A model generated the notes under the pieces. That model saw only the letters and a program-made list of their open reading frames with translations, was not told the origin of the DNA and made no database searches. From Antennarius striatus (taxonomy: Eukaryota > Chordata > Actinopteri > Lophiiformes > Antennariidae): a stretch of 64,000 bases of DNA. The position numbers and the translations under genes are program-made. The DNA is taken from positions 6,200,982-6,264,981 of the forward strand of contig NC_090781.1 of the NCBI RefSeq assembly GCF_040054535.1, read 5' to 3'. Of this stretch, positions 11,687 through 63,452 are shown one piece after another (the first letter of the stretch is position 1; each line of letters opens with the position of its first letter).

Positions 11687-14476
11687 TTATCTCCGTGATG
11701 TTCTTCCGGGGCCTTTGAATGGGTTATCCTGTATGAAACAGATAAAACATTGTTCAGGAAAATCTTAAATTACGATCATAAAGATTTTGGAAAGCAATTA
11801 CAAAAAAAACATGTGAGACAGACTGTAGTAATCCCTCGTTACTTGCGGTTAAAGCAAGTCCCGCCTCTCACTGACCTGCTGTCTGACGGCTGAACAGCCT
11901 GCTGAGACCGGCTACGAAAACATAACAAAACAGGGAATTTTCAATGATTCTATTAATAAAGTTTGACTGACTGACTAATCTCAGTATTTCCTAACCGCTG
12001 TGGCGCTGGAAATAACCCACTTTAAACTTAATTGGTCTAAAAAATGCTTTTGTCGAGTGTCAGTGCTGTAATCTTGATTCTAGTGACGGTCCATTTTATT
12101 GGTTTGCGGAAACACACAGAGAAACTGGCATAAAGGTGAATGAAAGACCCTTAAAGCGGAACTTCCAGCCTTTTCTGAAATTTCAAGAGCAGAGTCACTG
12201 CTAGACAAAGGTGTCTACTGTGCTGCAATTAATTTGGAAATGTAGTTGATACCTGAAACAACACGTTACGGGGGGACAGGGGGGTGCATTTAGGCTTGTG
12301 TATTCTGTCTGGCAGTGACGTGCTGTGAGATTCACAGAGGTGAGACACCGACGTTAAAGTCAGTTCTATGAGTAAAACAGCGTCACATTTGCCAGTTAAT
12401 TAGCATCCTGACATTAAAAACTGGATAAAAAATTGTTTAGGACACACAGGAGCAAATAACTGCCTCTCACCTCCAACTGGACTACCAATCGATCGAAACA
12501 ATAATTAATAAACGAAGGCGAATGTCGGAGCTTAAATATCTGCTTGGAACTTCAGATCAGGAAATAATTGTCCCTGTTCCCACTGACTGACTGTTGATGA
12601 GATTCTCCTGGAAATAATGAAGGCTCTGGGTGTTGAGGGGCTGTCGTGGATGACACGCCTCTTTAACATTGCGTGGAAGTCTGGGACAGTGCCGAAAGAG
12701 TGGCAGACTCGGGTGGTGGTTCCTCTTTTTAAAAAGGGGGACCAGAGGGTGTGTGCATCACACTCCTCAGCCTCCCTGGGAAAGTTTACTCCAAGGTGCT
12801 GGAAAGGAGGGTCCGGCCGATTGTCGAGCCTCAGATTGAGGAGGAACAATGTGGGTTCCGTCCTGGTCGTGGAACAACGGACCAGCTTTTTACCCTCACA
12901 GGGATCCTAGAGGGGGCTTGGGAGTATGCCCATCCAGTCTACATGTGTTTTGTGGACTTGGAGAAGGCATATGATCGTGTCCCCAGGGATATACTGTGGG
13001 AAGTACTGCGGGAGTATGGGGTGAGGGGGCCTCTCCTCAGGGCCATCCAATCCCTGTACGCCCAAAGTGAGAGCTGCGTTTGGGTTCTCGGCAGTAAGTC
13101 AAACTTGTTCCGAGTAGCTGTTGGCCTTCGCCAAGGCTGCGCTTTATCACCAATTCTGTTTGTGATTTTCATGGACAGGATATCGAGGCGTAGTCGTGGT
13201 GAGGAGGCTTTACAGTTTGGTGGCCTGAGGATTGCATCGCTGCTTTTTGCAGATCATGTGATCCTGTTTGCGTCATCAGCCTGTGACCTGCAGCTCTCAC
13301 TGGTCCGGTTTGCAGCCGAGTGGGAAGCGGCGGGGATGAGGATTAGCACCTCCAAATCTGAGGCCATGGTCCTCAGCAGGAAACTGGTGGAATGCCTTCT
13401 CCAAGTGGGGAATGAGGTCCTTCAACAAGTGAAGGAGTTTAAGTATCTCGGGGTCCTGTTCACGAGTGAGGGAACAATGAAGTGTGAGATTGGACGGAGA
13501 ATTGGGGCAGCAGGAGCGGTATTGCAGTCGCTTTACCGCACTGTTTTCACAAAGAGGGAGCTAAGCCGAGAGGCAAAGCTCTCTATCTGCCATTCAATCT
13601 TCGTTCCTACCCTCACCTATGGTCATGAGCGATGGGTCATGACCGAAAGAACGAGATCGAGGATACAAGCGGCTGAAATGGGCTTTCTCAGGTGGATAGC
13701 TGGTGTCTCCCTTAGAGATAAGGTGAGAAACACTGCTGTTCGCGAGGGGCTCAGAGTAGAGCCACTGCTCCTTCGCGTGGAAAGGAGTCAGTTGAGGTGG
13801 TTTGGGCATCTGGAGCGGATGCCTCCGGGACGCCTCCCTAGGGAGGTGTTTCTGGCACGTCCAGCTGGGAGGAGATCTCGGAAAAGACCCAGGACCAGGT
13901 GGAGGGATTATATCTCAACACTGGCCTGGGAACGCCTTGGGATCCCCCAGTCAGAGCTGGTGGATGTGGCCGGGGAAAGGGAAGTTTGGGGCTCCCTGTT
14001 GAAGCTGCTGCCCCCGTGACCCGATTCCGGATAAGCGGTGGAAGATGGATGGATGGATGGACAATTCATTAAAGGTGCGCCTTACAATCCAGTGTGCCTT
14101 ATTGTGCGGAAAATACTGTATTTCATTATTTACGGCAATTTAAACATTTATGAACCCTCCCCATACTTAATATATATTAATTATTATTAATTAATTAATT
14201 AATTATTAATATATTAAACCACCTTAATGTATATCTGTATTACCTTTCCCCACACTCTTGTAGACGTGTATATATATCAATAATTGTGTTTCTTATAGTG
14301 GGCAAGGATGACGCACACAATATTCCCTGAACAGTCTTTACTTGGCGCCCAGCCTTAACAAGGAACAAACAAGAAATGACAACGATATCCCACTCGCACT
14401 CTCATCCTCGCTCTCACACCCCCTTCTCAGTCTCGCGAACACATGCTGAACACACAGACCTAGGCCAACTCAGGGC

Positions 14477-14542
<66 letters not shown>

Positions 14543-17500
14543 GGAACAACACGGGTTATCATAGACTGTTGAAAAACACTTTTGTATTAAAGAAAAGCTG
14601 CAGGAGGAACCGTGAGTCTCGCTGTCAGCCAATAGCATCTATCTATCTATCTAAGCCCCTCGCTCCCCCTGGAGCATAGGCCATCGACAACAGTACGCCA
14701 GATTACTCTGTCCTGTGCGACTCTTTCAAGCTGATTCCAGGTCTTTCCCATCCTCTTCATGTCAGCATTGAGTTCACGGTGCCAGGTGTTTCTTTGCATT
14801 TCTCTCTTTTGTTTCCCTTGTGGATTAAACTTCAGTGCCTGCCTTGTGATGGTGTTGGGCGGCTTCCTCAGAGTGCGCCCAATCCATCTCCATCTTCTGT
14901 GCCTGATCTCCTCGTCAGCTGGCCGCTGGTTGGTTTGCTGCCACAGGTCTGCGTTGCTGATGGTGTCAGGCCAGTGTATCTGGAGGATCCTTCTCAGGCA
15001 GCTATAGATGAAGGTCTGCACTTTCTTGATGGTGGTTATTGTAATTCTCCATGTCTCTGCTCCATAAAGTACTGACTTGGCGTTGGAGTTGAACAGCCTG
15101 ATTTTTGTGCGAGTTCACACTACTATGGAATTCCAGATGTTTTTAAGCTGCAAGTATGCTGTCCTCGCTTTGCCCATTCTTGCTCTGACGTCTACATCTG
15201 TGCCGCCCCGTCTGTTAATGATGCTGTCAAAGTATATGAAAATTTCTACCTCTTCCAGCTCGCTCCCATGAAGCATGACTGGGTCCTCGCTTGTTGTATT
15301 GATCTTAAAGATCTTGGTCTTGTCTTCATGAATCTTGATTGCAACTTCTGATGACGTGGCTGCCAGCTCTGTTGTCTTATCCTGCATCTGCTGGTGATTG
15401 TGGGAAAACAGGGCCAAGTCGTCAGCAAAGTCTAACAGCTGGTCAAACAGTGTCCACTGAATCCCGTTTCTTCTGTCTGCTGTTGTCTTCATGGTTCAGT
15501 CAATCATCAGAAGGAAGAGGAAAGGTGACAAAAGGCAGCCTTGTCTGACTCCCGTCTTCACGCTGAAGCTGTCTGTCAGTTGACCTCCATGGACCACTCG
15601 GCACGTCATTCCCCGTTTGGAATTCCTAATTAGGGTGACCACCTTGGATGGCACTCCGTAATGATGTAGCATCTTCCAGAGAGTAATGCGATCCACTCTA
15701 TCGAAATCCTTCTCATAGTCAACAAAGTTGATGTACAGCGTGTCACGGTTCGGCGTGGCAGTGCTGGTGTGTGGAAGGGGGAGACCAAGCTTGTGGGTGG
15801 AGCCACGGCTCCACACCTGTTGGTCCTCTCCACACCTGAGACTCATCCACACAGCCTGTCTGATTATCACACCTGAACTTGCTTTGGTGCTAATGACGAT
15901 AAGGCTTTTTAAGCCTGGCTCCATGAGAGCTCAGTGCTGGTTCGTTTGCTCATGTTTGGTTCCTGGTAGTCTTTCCTGATTTTGAGTTTCTTGTCTGTCT
16001 GGAGAATTTTTCAAGTTTGTTAATAAATCATGGATGGAAGATTTGCTTTTGGTGTCCTGCACTTGGGTCCATATGCCGCCTCATGTGACAGTACGAACCA
16101 GCCTACTCTGGACCCAGCGGGCACTGACCTTCGTGCTGTCCTGGCGAGGAAGGAGCCTTTGGATCCGGAACGGGCTGCAGAGTTGAAGCAGCGGGGAATT
16201 GCCGCCTTAAAGTGGTTGTCAGCTCGCACTGGAATTCCAGTTCCACCTGCATTGCTGGTCCCCGAGCCTTTTCCAGAGCCAGTTCCCGTCCCCGCACCCC
16301 GACCTCAGCCTGTTCCCGTCCCCACGCTCGAGTCTGTTCCTGCATCTGAGTCTGCTCCTGTTCCTGAACCCTGCCTCGAGTCTGCTCCTGTTCCTGAACC
16401 CCGCCTCGAGTCTGATCCTGCTCCTGAACCCCGCCTCGAGTCTGATCCTGCTCCTGCTCCCCGCCTCGAGTCTGATCCTGCTCCTGCTCCCCACCTCGAG
16501 TCTGCTCCTGCTCCCTGCCTCGAGTCTGATCCTGTTCCTGAACCCCGCCTCGAGTCTGCTCCTGTTCCGGCACCCGAGTCTGCTCCTGTTCCGGCACCCG
16601 AGTCTGCTCCTGTTCCGGCACCCGAGTCTGCTCCTGTTCCGGCACCCGAGCCTGCCCCTGTTCCGGCACCCGAGCCTGCCCCTGTTCCGGCACCCGAGCC
16701 TGCCCCTGTTCCGGCACCCGAGGCTGCCCCTGTTCCGGCACCCGAGCCTGCCCCTGTTCCGGCACCCGAGCCTGCTCCTGTTCCTGCACCCAAGTCTGCT
16801 CCTGCTCCTGTTCCTGACCCTCCCTGGGACCAGTTATGGGACGTCGGGGGCCGTCCCTTGAGGGGGGGGTACTGTCACGGTTCGGCGTGGCAGTGCTGGT
16901 GTGTGGCAGGGGGAGGCCAAGCTTGTGGGTGGAGCCACGGCTCCACACCTGTTGGTCCTCTCCACACCTGAGACTCATCCACACAGCCTGTCTGATTATC
17001 ACACCTGAACTTGCTTTGGTGCTCATGACCATAAGGCTTTTTAAGCCTGGCTCCGTGAGAGCTCAGTGCTGGTTTGTTTGGTTCCTGGTAGTCTTTCCTG
17101 ATTTTGAGTTTCTTGTCTGTTTGGATAATTTTTTAAGTTTGTTAATAAATCATGGATGGAAGATTTGCTTTTGGTGTCCTGCACTTGGGTCCATATTCCG
17201 CCTCACGTGACACAGCGAGGTGTTCCACTCTAAAGATTGCTCAACAATAATATGCAAAGTGGCGATCTGGTCAATGCATGATCTGTTCTGGCGAAATCCA
17301 GCTAGCTGGTCTCCGAGGTCCACGGCAGCTTTTATTCTCTCAAGAAGGATCCTATTGAAGATTTTTCCAGGCACTGACAGAAGCGTTATTCCTCTGTAGT
17401 TGGAGCAGTTGCTGAGGTCTCTTTTCTTGGGTAGCTTGATGACGTAGCCCTCCTAATCTCTTCCCTGGTTGGTTTTTCACAGTTGATATCTAGGTCTGTG

Positions 17501-20500
17501 TCTGCTGGTACGATGTCTGGTGGATTTGGGGAGACAGGTCTGTTTAGGAGCTCTTCAAAGTGCTCTGCCCATCTATGTGGTTGCCGCTCTGTTCCCTCGA
17601 TGATTGCGCCTCCTTGTCTCTGACTGGTTGTTCAGGCCTGCTATACTTCCCTGACAGTTTCTTGGTGTGTCGTACAGCTGCTTCATATTGTTACTGGCTG
17701 CTGCTTCTTCTGCCTCCTCTGCCAGACTATTAATGTACTTGCAGTTGTCTGTTCTAGCGCTCTTTTTCACTTCTTTGTTTGCTTTTGTGAAGTCTTCTTG
17801 TGCTTTGGCCTTTGCTGCTCTTGTCCTACTGTTGTTCACTGCTGCCTTCTTCTGCTTCCTCTCTTGGGTCTTGCGTAGTGTGTCAGCCAATATCCATTCC
17901 ATTTGTTGGTGCTTCTTGTAGCCTACTACTCCTTGGCAAGTAGATGTAAGTGTCTCTTTCACCCTCTGCCACTGGTTCTCAATGGCATTTTCAAGAAGTT
18001 CCTGTAGCACTTGGTACTTACTTGTGAGAGACAATTTGAATTCTCTGATCTTAAAATCTTTCAGCAGGCTGACGTACTTCTGTCTCTTTGTTGTTGTTTC
18101 CATCCAGTTCTTCTTCAGCTTCTGCCTGGTTACTAGCAGGTGGTGATCAGATGTGACGTCTGCTCCTCTTTTAACCCTTACATCCTGTAGGGACCTCCTG
18201 AATTTCTTGGCCATGCAGATGTGGTCAATCTGGTTCTCAGTAACTAGGTTCGGTGATACCCAGGTAACTTTGTGTATTCTTCTGTGGGGGAAAATGCTGC
18301 CACCAATGACCAGGTTGTTCACTGCGCAGAAGTCTGCAAATCTCTCGCCGTACTCATTCATCACACCCAGTCTTCCCATAACTTCTTCATATCTGGTGTT
18401 GTTTTGTCCGATCATGGCATTAAGATTGCCCATGAGGATATTGACCTCTTTCTCTGGAAAGAGGTCAATATCCTCATGGGCCATGACACTTTTTAGTGGC
18501 CATGACACTTTTTAGTCTGTCCCAGAACTGGTTCTTATTTATCTTGATCTTTTTCTGAGGGATGCTGTAATGATTCTTCTGTAATGATTCCAAGCAGTGT
18601 GAGGTTGTAGCTCTTCATCTCTGCGGCTACTTGACATGTTTTTCCCGTCTTGTACATGGTCCTCACACTCCATGTTCCGATGTTTATGGTCTTTGTCGAT
18701 AGAAGGGGGGTTGGCTTTGTAGCTTCCATAGATTCACTGTTTTTTGCCCTGTACCCAACCCTCCTTAGTTGCCTTTTACAACTTGCATGGTAAGGAAACG
18801 GCAGTCCTATTCTGTGCTTGCCTGGCAAGCTTACCCCGGGTACCACAGAACACACAGACGTAGGCCAATTCAGCTAGGCTTGCGCTAGCCATTCGCCACG
18901 TCGCCATAGGCGTGTGAATTCCAGATTGGCTACAAGGTTTTTAGCTTGTGTAGCCACAGTGGCGTTCTTATTTTTAGGAGAAGGCCGAAACTTACAACGT
19001 TTTTTTGACTCGCAAAATCCCCGAGCAATAACAAACTTTTTCTCTCGATAGCGCCGCTATTTCCGTCAGCGCATGCCGGCGGAAATAGCCGACGGAAATA
19101 GCCGAAGCATGCCGACGGAAATAGCCGAAGCATGGCGACGGAAATAGCCGACGGAAATAGCCAAAGCATGGCGACGGAAATAGCCGAAGCATGCCAACAA
19201 ACATAGCCGAAGTGACCCAAACGCTCCCGGTTATTAAATATTCACTCGTCATGACCGCCTCTCGTCCAATGAAAAACAAAAAGATTCTATTTTTACAAGC
19301 TAAACCCGGGAATTGGTGTACGAGAGGGCAAGGATGATCAATCGAAAGAAATTAAGAATCCAGTGTTATATAATAGAGTTTGTGTTAAAATTCTAATTGA
19401 ACAACAAATGGTGAATGCTGAGAGGGGGTAGGAGTGGTGACAGACCGATCAGAAGGTCAATGAAAGATATTATCAATACTTTTTTATAGTCTTAGACTTT
19501 TGATCCCTATGACCAGCAGGAACAACAAGTGAAGCATGTAAATGTGTATTCACCTTATCAAATTTAAAAAAAACCAACTAAACTATGACATACCAATGGT
19601 GTTGGTGGTCAAAGTTAAATATGTCTTCTAGTCCAAGTAAAACTTACAAGTAAACATTGAGTAACATTTTGTATGAGTGTATCTTCACATAGTGAATGCA
19701 AGTTTTCAGTTGTTGAATCTCACATTTATACCTGAATAAAGTAGGATAGAGATAAAGATAGTTAAGCTTGAACTGTTGACTTTAGTGTATTTTTGTAGGT
19801 AAACTGAACGGAAGATTTTGCCCTCAGAATGCACCAGAATGCAGGAAAACAATCGCATTTTCTAAAAAATTTCCTGGGGAAGGCCCCCCAGACCCCCCAT
19901 GAGGGGTAACTCCCTAACGCCCCCTCGCGACGAGCGTTGGCCGTCCGTGCACTGCACCACTATATTCACATATCAATACACATAGCTTTGCTAATTCCTT
20001 TTACAAAGAGCCACAGTGGCTTCGTCAACTACCCTAAGCCCTAGCTCTAGCCCAGCTCACAGGCATATACACACATACTACAGAACAACACGAGTTATCA
20101 CAGACTGTTTAAAACACTTTTGTATAAAAGAAAAGTTGCAGGAGAAACCGTGAGTCTCACTGTCAGCCAATAGCATGCGCTTACGGTATCATGTGAATAC
20201 AAACTAAAAATCCACGATGCAGTGAAGCCACGCATCTTGAAGCGCAAATAAGCGATGGATTAATGTACTGTCAGAAATGCAGCATTAACTATCAGTATAT
20301 TGCACCAATTTATCTCTTTACCTCATCATCACCATCACTGTCATCAAAAGCAACTCCTCTGGATGACTGACTCTGGCTCTGTGAGCTGTATTTATTGAAG
20401 GATGAAGACGATGTTGCTCTGTGGTAAACAAGGGAAAAAACTCACGATTGTAAAATGTAAATCATTATTACGATGTGAACGCTCTATATTTGCACAGTGC

Positions 20501-23500
20501 AAACATCCACTTGGCATTGTTCCTTTTACTACATTTTATTTCTACTATACCTGGGGGGGGCTCTGGTAGATTTGCTTACAGGTACATCTTCATCAGAGTC
20601 ATCAATGGTCACCTGGAGATTGACCAGGATGAAGTAAGGTTGAAGAAAGTACAACTCAAATGTTTAATGTAACTGTTTGAATGTTTTTCGACATTTGACT
20701 TACTTCATCGACATAAGATGTTGTCGCTCGAGCCCTAGACGATCTCTGAGATGCAGCTTGAAAAGCTGAGGAATAAGATGTAAGGATGAAGGGGAGGGAA
20801 AGGAGGAGCTTGACAATTTCATACCATGGTAAAATGTGTTCACACTGGACGTCTCTTGCTTCATTTTTTTGCTGTCAACTCTTTTCCATTTGCACCATTT
20901 TCTTTTTTATTAAAAAAAAAATAGAGACAGGAGAGTGAAATGTCTGCAGAAAAACTCTATAATCTATTTTTCAGAGTATTTGTTCCTGAGCTCAAATAAA
21001 AATATTGTGATTTTCAACTTGTTTCATCTTTTTGTCATTTCTCTATAAAGTGTCCAATTATGACATTTTTTTGTCACAAAATGGCTGGGACACTAACAGA
21101 TGCAAGAAAAACTGTACATCGCTTGCCTCACGAGGAGACTCCCTCTTAAAACACACACAATAACATCCAGGGACTCTCCTACCATGCATGATACTTCTGC
21201 TTTGAGCAGTTCCTGAGGATCTCTGGGAACGACCCCGCCCTGCTGACTTTGGTTCAGTGGCTGTCGCACCTGGATGGACATGTGAAGGATTCACAGAATT
21301 GATCAAGTTGAATTAAATAGCTGATTACTGGAAAATTACCATCTATATTTTTTTGTTGTTACACTTTTATGATTTTTTAGTTAAAGGATCTCACTGACAT
21401 CTAAAAAGAGCAAAGATTTGTGTGCAATTGTGGCATAAAACAAATCAATTTTGACCTGTTCCAAATTTCAATGAGACTTCAAGTAAATGCTTTATCCTGC
21501 AGGTCTTGTCTATTAAATGTCCAAAGATGCCATGGTATATGCGGTTTTAAACGGTTTACTTCCCTCTGCTCCACTATGTCACTTCATATTTGTGTCAGGG
21601 AATATGATGGCTCACCTTGCCCCCTTCCACGCCCACCTCGTCCCCTGCCACCACGTCCTCTGCCTCGGGTTGGTGGAGGCGACAGGTTTGAGCCTTCATC
21701 AGAGTCCATATTAACATCAGCAAAGCCATCAGGTATTTCCATATCTCCACCAATACCTCCACGTTCCACACGGATAGCTTTGGCTCTGTTCATAGCCTGA
21801 GAATCATAAACAAGACTCGCACAACTAGACAAAGACAGCTACCACTACGATACTACAAAACTTTTGAAACATAACTTACTTCACTGATTTCTTTCTCTTC
21901 CTCAGCTGTATTCTTCTTGGAGTCTCGAAATCGCTGGATCTGAAAATGTAACACCAACTATTAGAATAATATACAGCATCAACTTCATCCACTCTGCATT
22001 CCAAGGAGTCCCACCTCTGTGTCTATATCCTGCTCTGTACTGACACCTCTGGCCTGGAGGTGGCGCTGTGTCTTCTCTAACTGGTAATTGATGAGCTCCT
22101 CAATGGCTTCTTTCTCATCTTTGTCAACAAACTCCTGAATGGCCTTTCCCATACCCTGTTCACTCAGAAGAGACAACTGCACCGTCTGTGAAGACAAGAA
22201 TGCAAATAGTAGAAAATTAGTGTTACTTACTCAGTACTTATTTTTAGTATATGAATCAGCCTGTGTCATACCTGCTCGGCTGCCTCAAAGTACTGTTTAA
22301 CCAGGTGTTCCACTCTCAATCCCTCAACTGCTGTGGTTTTCACCAATTTGCTGTAGTCAACATTAACCTCATCTGAAAGGCCCAAAGACAAACACACACA
22401 ACAGACTGTGAGCCAATCTACAGTATATCTGGTACTGTAGACCCATAGCTTAGCATTTGGTTCATCTCAGACCTTTGACGTTCGCATTTTGCTCACGCCG
22501 TCTCAGAAAGTGAATGATATCTTTTGGATTGGCCACAAGGTTCACATACGTCTGGCAGAAACGAGAGGTGTTGAACGTCTCAAAACCTCCACTGTAGTCC
22601 ACCTGGGAGAGGCAGTGAAGGGGATGTGTTTGTCTGTGGATTAATTCTGGGACCGTACTGTATGTAGCTGCAGTGTGTGTTTAAGCCTTACCCTCAGGCG
22701 AATAAGAGGCTTCTCCGGGGTCTCTGGACAGCCAAGTCTTTCTCTTTCAGCCTCTTCTATCATCTCTGTGACCTACAGAATGACAAAAGGAAAGATATAA
22801 GGAAATTTAGATTCTGGAGCAGAAGGTGAATGATCAATGGTGGCTTTAGGTGTTACCTTCGCGTGGCAGAAGTTCTCCACTTTCTTTATGAATTGTGGTG
22901 TCCCAGGTGTGAAGAGGTCTTGGTGGTCAGCCAGAACCACATCCTGGATGAAGAACTGACGTACACTCTTTAAGGGGATTTTTTGCAGGTTCATTTTACG
23001 ACCTTTCACCTTCAGCAGGCCTATGTGCCTGGATACACACACAAAATTGGCTAAGTCATCATTTTGCAACATACTGAAAGTGGAGACCATCATTAAGCTG
23101 TGTGAACGTCTGCTTGTACTTTTTGGTGGCTTCTCCAGGGGACAGGGAGGTGGCAATAGAGCTGCCTGGCTGTGTCACGTAAAAGAGCCGTTGTTCATTT
23201 CTGGTTGGTGTTATCAAACACTCATGTTCATGACCCCACACCACAAGGTCAAGAAATTCATCAAGGAACTGCTCAGGGATGTAGTTAGTGGGTCCATGCT
23301 TACTCCTACAAGGAAATAATAAGAGACATAAAATACATGACAATGAAACAAACAGGATGTAAACTAAGAAAACATAGCAGTTTAATTCCTCAATGACAAA
23401 ATGGGATTGACTTTGTAAAATAACAAATAAAATGTATTTTGGGTCAAACGTTCAAAGGCTAGGAACATACAACGGCCCACTCTTCTTCACAGAGGCCTAT

Positions 23501-40737: not shown

Positions 40738-63452
<22,715 letters not shown>

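Follow-up and report, generated by a model that had tools for sequence, protein, structure and literature searches.

The element at 15741-17212 of the window (the whole 64,000-nucleotide stretch of Antennarius striatus DNA that was analysed) is 1,472 bp long, and we hold with good confidence that it belongs, as one copy, to a non-autonomous family of LTR retrotransposons that appears to prime its own reverse transcription, is related to chromodomain Ty3 elements of the Tf1/sushi type in the host genome and was most likely mobilised by them. On the sequence comparisons below, its description as a putative non-autonomous, self-priming derivative of the Tf1/sushi group is well supported. A self-primer, a recurring domain ahead of the repeat and an ATG inside the LTR were found in addition to what a preliminary description of this DNA had reported.

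That description had listed LTRs of 350 and 340 bp with TGTCAC..GTGACA termini, a CAGCG duplication, a purine tract and a 782 bp interior (16091-16872), all of which were confirmed in place (Table 1). The LTR pair differed by 10 substitutions over 340 sites and one 10 bp gap (K2P 0.030). Paired LTRs, a target duplication, a primer site and a polypurine tract, by which LTR retrotransposons are recognised, were all present. The G-run GAGGGGGGGG ended 3 bp before the 3' LTR, and the 30 and 24 bp repeat units formed tandem arrays at 16348-16808. The element interrupts a LINE with an RVT_1 match on 15496-15930 (Pfam, E 7.9e-8) that probably extends past 15441-17517 in both directions. With the element and one CAGCG removed, the LINE reverse-transcriptase frame ran unbroken across the joint, and this continuity of the rejoined flanks demonstrates a real insertion. 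Rfam and tRNA scans of the whole window gave no match. Folding 5' of the polypurine tract gave z values of -0.85 and -0.73 in the window, -1.40 in L046 and -0.43 in L047, and because these values are weak we do not claim a hairpin there. A viral_contigs scan with the polypurine/LTR joint returned one match that was taken as chance; the frames of the matched contig we take to be phage-like (baseplate). Elsewhere in the window we observed a 428-codon LINE reverse-transcriptase frame at 12733-14019 on the plus strand (RVT_1, E 2.6e-33), an inverted repeat around ccatgaggatattgacctcttt at 18425-18482 adjoining a 19 bp tandem duplication, a minisatellite of CGACGGAAATAGCC-type units at 19071-19210, and frames at 22773-23451 and 40906-41406 that presumably resemble MRE11 and DOCK exons.

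Table 1. Features of the element and its insertion site, in window positions.
Feature	Position	Strand	Remark
Target-site duplication, left copy, CAGCG	15736-15740	.	
Target-site duplication, right copy, CAGCG	17213-17217	.	
5' LTR, 350 bp	15741-16090	+	
3' LTR, 340 bp	16873-17212	+	
TATA-like TTTTTAA	15906-15912	+	putative promoter
Self-primer segment GCTGGTTCGTT	15936-15946	+	putative RNA 5' end
AATAAA	16022-16027	+	putative poly(A) signal
Open frame, 313 codons	16030-16971	+	starts in 5' LTR, ends in 3' LTR
Primer binding site	16092-16102	+	complementary to 15936-15946 (10 of 11 pairs)
Recurring N-terminal domain, ~58 residues	16108-16281	+	LDPA..GIPVPP..
Proline-rich coding minisatellite	16273-16824	+	24 and 30 bp units
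Motif 5' of polypurine tract	16837-16866	+	common to enzyme-coding sushi-type elements
Polypurine tract GAGGGGGGGG	16860-16869	+	
LINE reverse-transcriptase gene interrupted by the LTR element	15441-17517	-	stretch examined

The host genome (G000; 548 Mb in 42 contigs) was searched with several parts of the element. With 40 of 624 candidates scored, at least 53 pieces aligned with the whole element at E<=0.001, and the stretch from U5 to the domain returned at least 40 matches (40 of 55 candidates scored). The domain matched 108 times at E<=10 and 90 times at E<=0.001, and the domain of an older subfamily 120 and 95 times, counts that include some places split into two rows. The suspicion that the element represents a family of its own was therefore borne out, with the domain at about 90 places at E<=0.001, and the interior start proved common to many copies where the want of any second copy had been named as grounds for abandoning the idea. 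Twenty interior-bearing copies (L010-L029) were fetched beside the window copy. Two LTRs were found in 19 of these, and L024 had one LTR within the stretch fetched. Interiors ranged from 433 to 1,247 bp, too short for pol, and much of the spread was due to the repeat array. Exact 5 bp duplications, read by eye, flanked 13 of the 21 interior-bearing copies (window copy and L010-L029) and L014 had a duplication of 6 bp, while the ends of the remainder were decayed, displaced or missing; the computed boundaries of L014, L015, L027 and L028 were displaced by partial LTR matches. LTR pairs free of substitutions were found in L014 (314 sites, 2 gaps), L017 (330 sites) and L020 (328 sites), which indicates that the family moved recently, and L016, L018 and L021 had one substitution each. 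Fifteen further loci (L030-L044) consisted of an LTR only; exact 5 bp duplications flanked nine of them and a 6 bp duplication flanked L041 (read by eye), identifying solo LTRs. At C13:13207776-13209485 and C8:14768445-14769444 copies followed one another at 811-860 bp; these are tandem arrays of the element, with LTRs probably shared between units. Two LTRs 7,499 bp apart on C8 (L035 and L036; C8:10491961-10529799, six LTR matches) were set aside as part of a tandemly duplicated genomic segment that carries a solo LTR.

Inspection of the frames and Pfam revealed no pol gene with a chromodomain-type integrase inside the window element. With 150 of 446 domain candidates scored, SH3_Tf2-1 lay downstream on the same strand within 9 kb of none of 53 primer-site junctions and within 3 kb upstream of none of 79 polypurine/LTR joints. 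The short interiors and the absence of pol-domain neighbours at the 53 junctions uphold the earlier view of a non-autonomous element without enzyme genes, and the full-length, pol-bearing copy that would have overturned it was not found among the 150 of 446 pol-domain candidates scored. When 103 of the 108 domain matches were compared with SH3_Tf2-1 positions (the omitted rows being mostly second pieces of split places), two had an SH3_Tf2-1 match within 12 kb downstream, one of them 9 kb off and the other L060, where the distance is 5 kb. L060 was considered as a pol-bearing copy and rejected, as it has an LTR to itself and forms a separate copy adjoining an enzyme-coding element. A different arrangement was seen at L057, where 3.8 kb separate the primer site from the polypurine tract and the interior holds other frames.

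Similarity to enzyme-coding elements was found at both ends of the interior. The 40-nt motif before the polypurine tract was 92.5% like that of L046 (E 2e-13), and six of the seven enzyme-coding 3' ends fetched matched this motif at E<=3e-5, L050 being the one that did not. A 30-base version, allowing 3 mismatches, occurred at 142 places in the host genome (none for the reversed control) and, among the places listed, lay in the family as well as a few hundred bases beyond SH3_Tf2-1 domains. In all seven copies compared, the start of the interior aligned with the L058 gag start over 28-38 columns (E 3e-6 to 0.006), and in four of the seven also with the L059 gag start (E<=5e-4); no homology between the domain and these two gag starts was detected past ~38 columns. 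Such matches would also be expected if the window element were one enzyme-coding element that had suffered an internal deletion, but with the domain common to about 90 places and the same build in 19 of 20 further copies, the family refutes this reading and we regard it as scarcely credible. Mobilisation of the family by relatives, as the preliminary description proposed in postulating a Ty3-like partner, is likely given the shared motif and gag-start matches, and the intact chromodomain-type elements of the same genome would be the likely enzyme donors. The search for that partner succeeded in part: chromodomain-type elements share motifs with the family, but none was found with the same primer site, and LTR likeness to the donors compared was limited to the ends and short motifs. 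An enzyme-coding element with primer site AACGAACCAGCC was not found among the 150 of 446 pol-domain candidates scored, the best differing at 2 letters, and the donor is therefore not pinned down. The primer site AACGAACTGGCC or AATGAACTGGCC followed by ATGGAC occurred at 17 places, of which 8 lay 3.4-4.1 kb before an SH3_Tf2-1 match when the lists were compared; these places may be regarded as the nearest donor candidates. AACCAGCC at 0 or 1 mismatch was not found together with ATG.

The primer site itself pointed to self-priming. GT followed by ACGAACCAGC lies directly inside the 5' LTR, and the exact complement, GCTGGTTCGT, was found at 15936, 30 nt downstream of where the TATA-like box begins (15906). 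When the 20-nt primer zone was shuffled an equally long LTR match arose in 11 of 5,000 shuffles, and none of 742 other interior 20-mers gave one. Read at a constant distance from the TATA-like box, the primer could be placed in 28 of 47 copies; 19 of these had 10-11 Watson-Crick pairs of 11 and 25 had at least 8, with 5 pairs or fewer in L022, L063 and L079. At the most variable column, 11 of these 25 copies had C-G, 10 had T-A, 3 had a T-G wobble and one, L062, was mismatched. A further position was altered on both sides in L076 (primer site AATGCACC vs GGTGCATT), and L012 and L024 combined the L076-type primer with primer site AATGAACC, giving one mismatch and no matching primer-site change. 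Partner swaps among the 18 distinct combinations reached the observed 157 of 198 pairs in 369 of 20,000 trials (mean 150.2). Across copies, primer and primer site tend to co-vary. In the window alone the primer-site 10-mer had 5 matches at one mismatch, which is not rare as 11 of 100 shuffles reached 5. In two enzyme-coding families of this genome the pairing involves different letters, AACGAACTGGC with GCCAGTTCGTT (L045/L058) and ACAATCTGGC with GCCAGATTGT (L046/L059). We infer the RNA start and the use of the primer from this complementarity, by which the element would prime as Tf1/sushi elements do, with the start of its RNA pairing to the primer site. In the Tf1/sushi group the primer is released from the end of the RNA by RNase H. 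Most LTR elements are tRNA-primed, and by this usual mode the element could be a tRNA-primed Ty3 or retrovirus-like derivative; however, none of the 40 copies whose LTR end was readable had TGG within the first 6 nt past the LTR (read by eye), and this together with the co-varying self-complementarity makes tRNA priming very unlikely.

The interior had been thought to hold one open frame, mainly a proline repeat, with a start retained at the gag position. The frame does span 313 codons and contains the minisatellite, but a domain of ~60 residues precedes the repeat, and the gag-position start was not retained: ATG was present there in 0 of 44 copies and CTG in 38 (the 44 include L056 and L074, which seem to be out of register, and the position is not reached by the 3 other copies of the 47). 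The frame begins at an ATG inside the LTR, beside AATAAA, and crosses the primer site before entering the domain and then the repeat. An ATG exactly 26 codons upstream of the gag start was followed by an open frame in 29 of 47 copies; counting frames open or not, it was present in 32, with the context AATAAATCATGG in 20 of them. Five of the six frames were long across the repeat, the third forward frame having 11 stops; a repeat unit that is a multiple of 3 leaves most frames open, so frame length is weak evidence of coding. Unit spacings were multiples of 3 in 322 of 327 cases, which a 6 bp sub-repeat would give without selection. The frame was open from the domain to the polypurine tract in 10 of 20 copies. 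L017 is frameshifted yet has identical LTRs, which shows that a copy's own protein is not needed for it to jump. Neither the whole frame nor the L016 domain had a Pfam match, to a Gag profile or otherwise. QLQ (E 0.17) and RHH_3 (E 0.27) came up for the window domain but fell short of their cut-offs; Cornifin exceeded its cut-off solely on the antisense repeat and was rejected. A PDB sequence search gave one match at E 1. The predicted structure had helices at 29-39 and 46-67 (mean pLDDT 63.3, pTM 0.34), by which the recurring domain is probably helical, and no meaning was drawn from the best Foldseek match (E 4.7).

To assess selection on the domain, nine disjoint pairs were hand-chosen from a tree of 37 copies, the other 10 of 47 having been left out for stops, frameshifts or partial domains. 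Across these pairs dN/dS was 0.35; the two remaining forward frames gave 0.80 and 0.74, and the three reverse frames 0.97, 0.54 and 1.09. Among the copies, single pairs scattered from 0.12 to 1.73. Differences by codon position in the nine pairs were 55/58/86 (p 0.012), a modest bias, and all changes on the tree were 90/96/114. Internal branches carried 29/26/45 changes, with a position-3 excess (p 0.010), and terminal branches 61/70/69. This pattern is modest evidence that fits a protein constrained while the family was active and decaying after insertion. Alternatively the frame may be a by-product, a non-coding passenger whose period is a multiple of 3 and whose domain recurs through kinship or a cis role such as packaging. 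We consider this a substantial possibility, though we lean against it. The five long frames, the 10 of 20 broken copies and the borderline internal versus terminal contrast (p 0.051) speak for it, as does the overlap of the first 26 codons with LTR and primer-site DNA that is conserved anyway. It is opposed by a dN/dS below that of all five other frames, by the position-3 excess on the internal branches, set against 61/70/69 on the terminal ones, and by the 29 of 47 copies in which an open frame follows an ATG placed at precisely -26 codons.

Under the self-priming reading, the RNA would start ~30 nt past the TATA-like box and its first 10-11 nt would fold back onto the sequence inside the 5' LTR and prime reverse transcription. 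The plus strand would begin at the G-rich tract, and borrowed reverse transcriptase and integrase would complete the copy and insert it with a 5 bp duplication. The family would meanwhile have kept an LTR-started frame encoding a helical domain and an expandable proline-rich tail. The modest signs of purifying selection suggest that the protein, or its translation, aided the spread of copies; that the protein joins the donor's Gag particle is a guess. A further proposal, which we offer tentatively and rather doubt, is that a long-lived parasitic lineage evolved its own protein, with an LTR-born ATG, reading across the primer site, and a helical head and proline tail acting in trans on the donor Gag particle for the copying of parasite RNA. 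If this is true, enzyme-less elements can be under selection for an original protein and are not mere debris. Across its copies, an element without enzymes of its own preserves a natural record of joint change in a primer and the site it binds. If the frame is used, a retroelement that lacks enzymes can keep and shape its own protein from a start codon in the LTR, and what the parasite needs from its donors, or does to them, would become testable.

No vertebrate element of the same build was found among the leading literature titles, and a Repbase or Dfam entry may exist. LARDs are non-autonomous, enzyme-less, large and non-coding; the element is likewise non-autonomous and without enzymes, but unlike them it is not large and carries a frame. 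TRIMs are very small and without coding capacity, and the element has a 782 bp interior with a frame of uncertain use. As described in PMC6934838, TRIMs are small and enzyme-less, form solo and tandem copies and have few animal reports; the element shares the small size, the lack of enzymes and both forms, and differs in its greater length, its recurring frame and a primer identified by sequence. Plant TR-GAG elements, as described in PMC8704663, are single-frame LTR elements that transpose without most proteins. The element is also an LTR element with a single frame, but it has no Gag profile match above the Pfam cut-off, has lost the gag ATG (44 of 44 copies) and starts its frame in the LTR. 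As described in PMC7175516, the Tf1 RNA start is complementary to the primer site over ~11 nt, and the putative RNA start of the element is complementary over a similar ~11 nt. The element ends, TGTCACG and, in the 3' LTR, CGTGACA, fit the Sushi-clade TGTYANR and CNTNACA given in PMC3601003, as well as the rGmr1 motifs, and AATAAA lies near the LTR 3' end as in that paper. Unlike Tf1/sushi, the element is without capsid, protease, reverse transcriptase, integrase and chromodomain, and because it has no pol with a chromodomain-type integrase we place it as a derivative of the Tf1/sushi group rather than an autonomous member.
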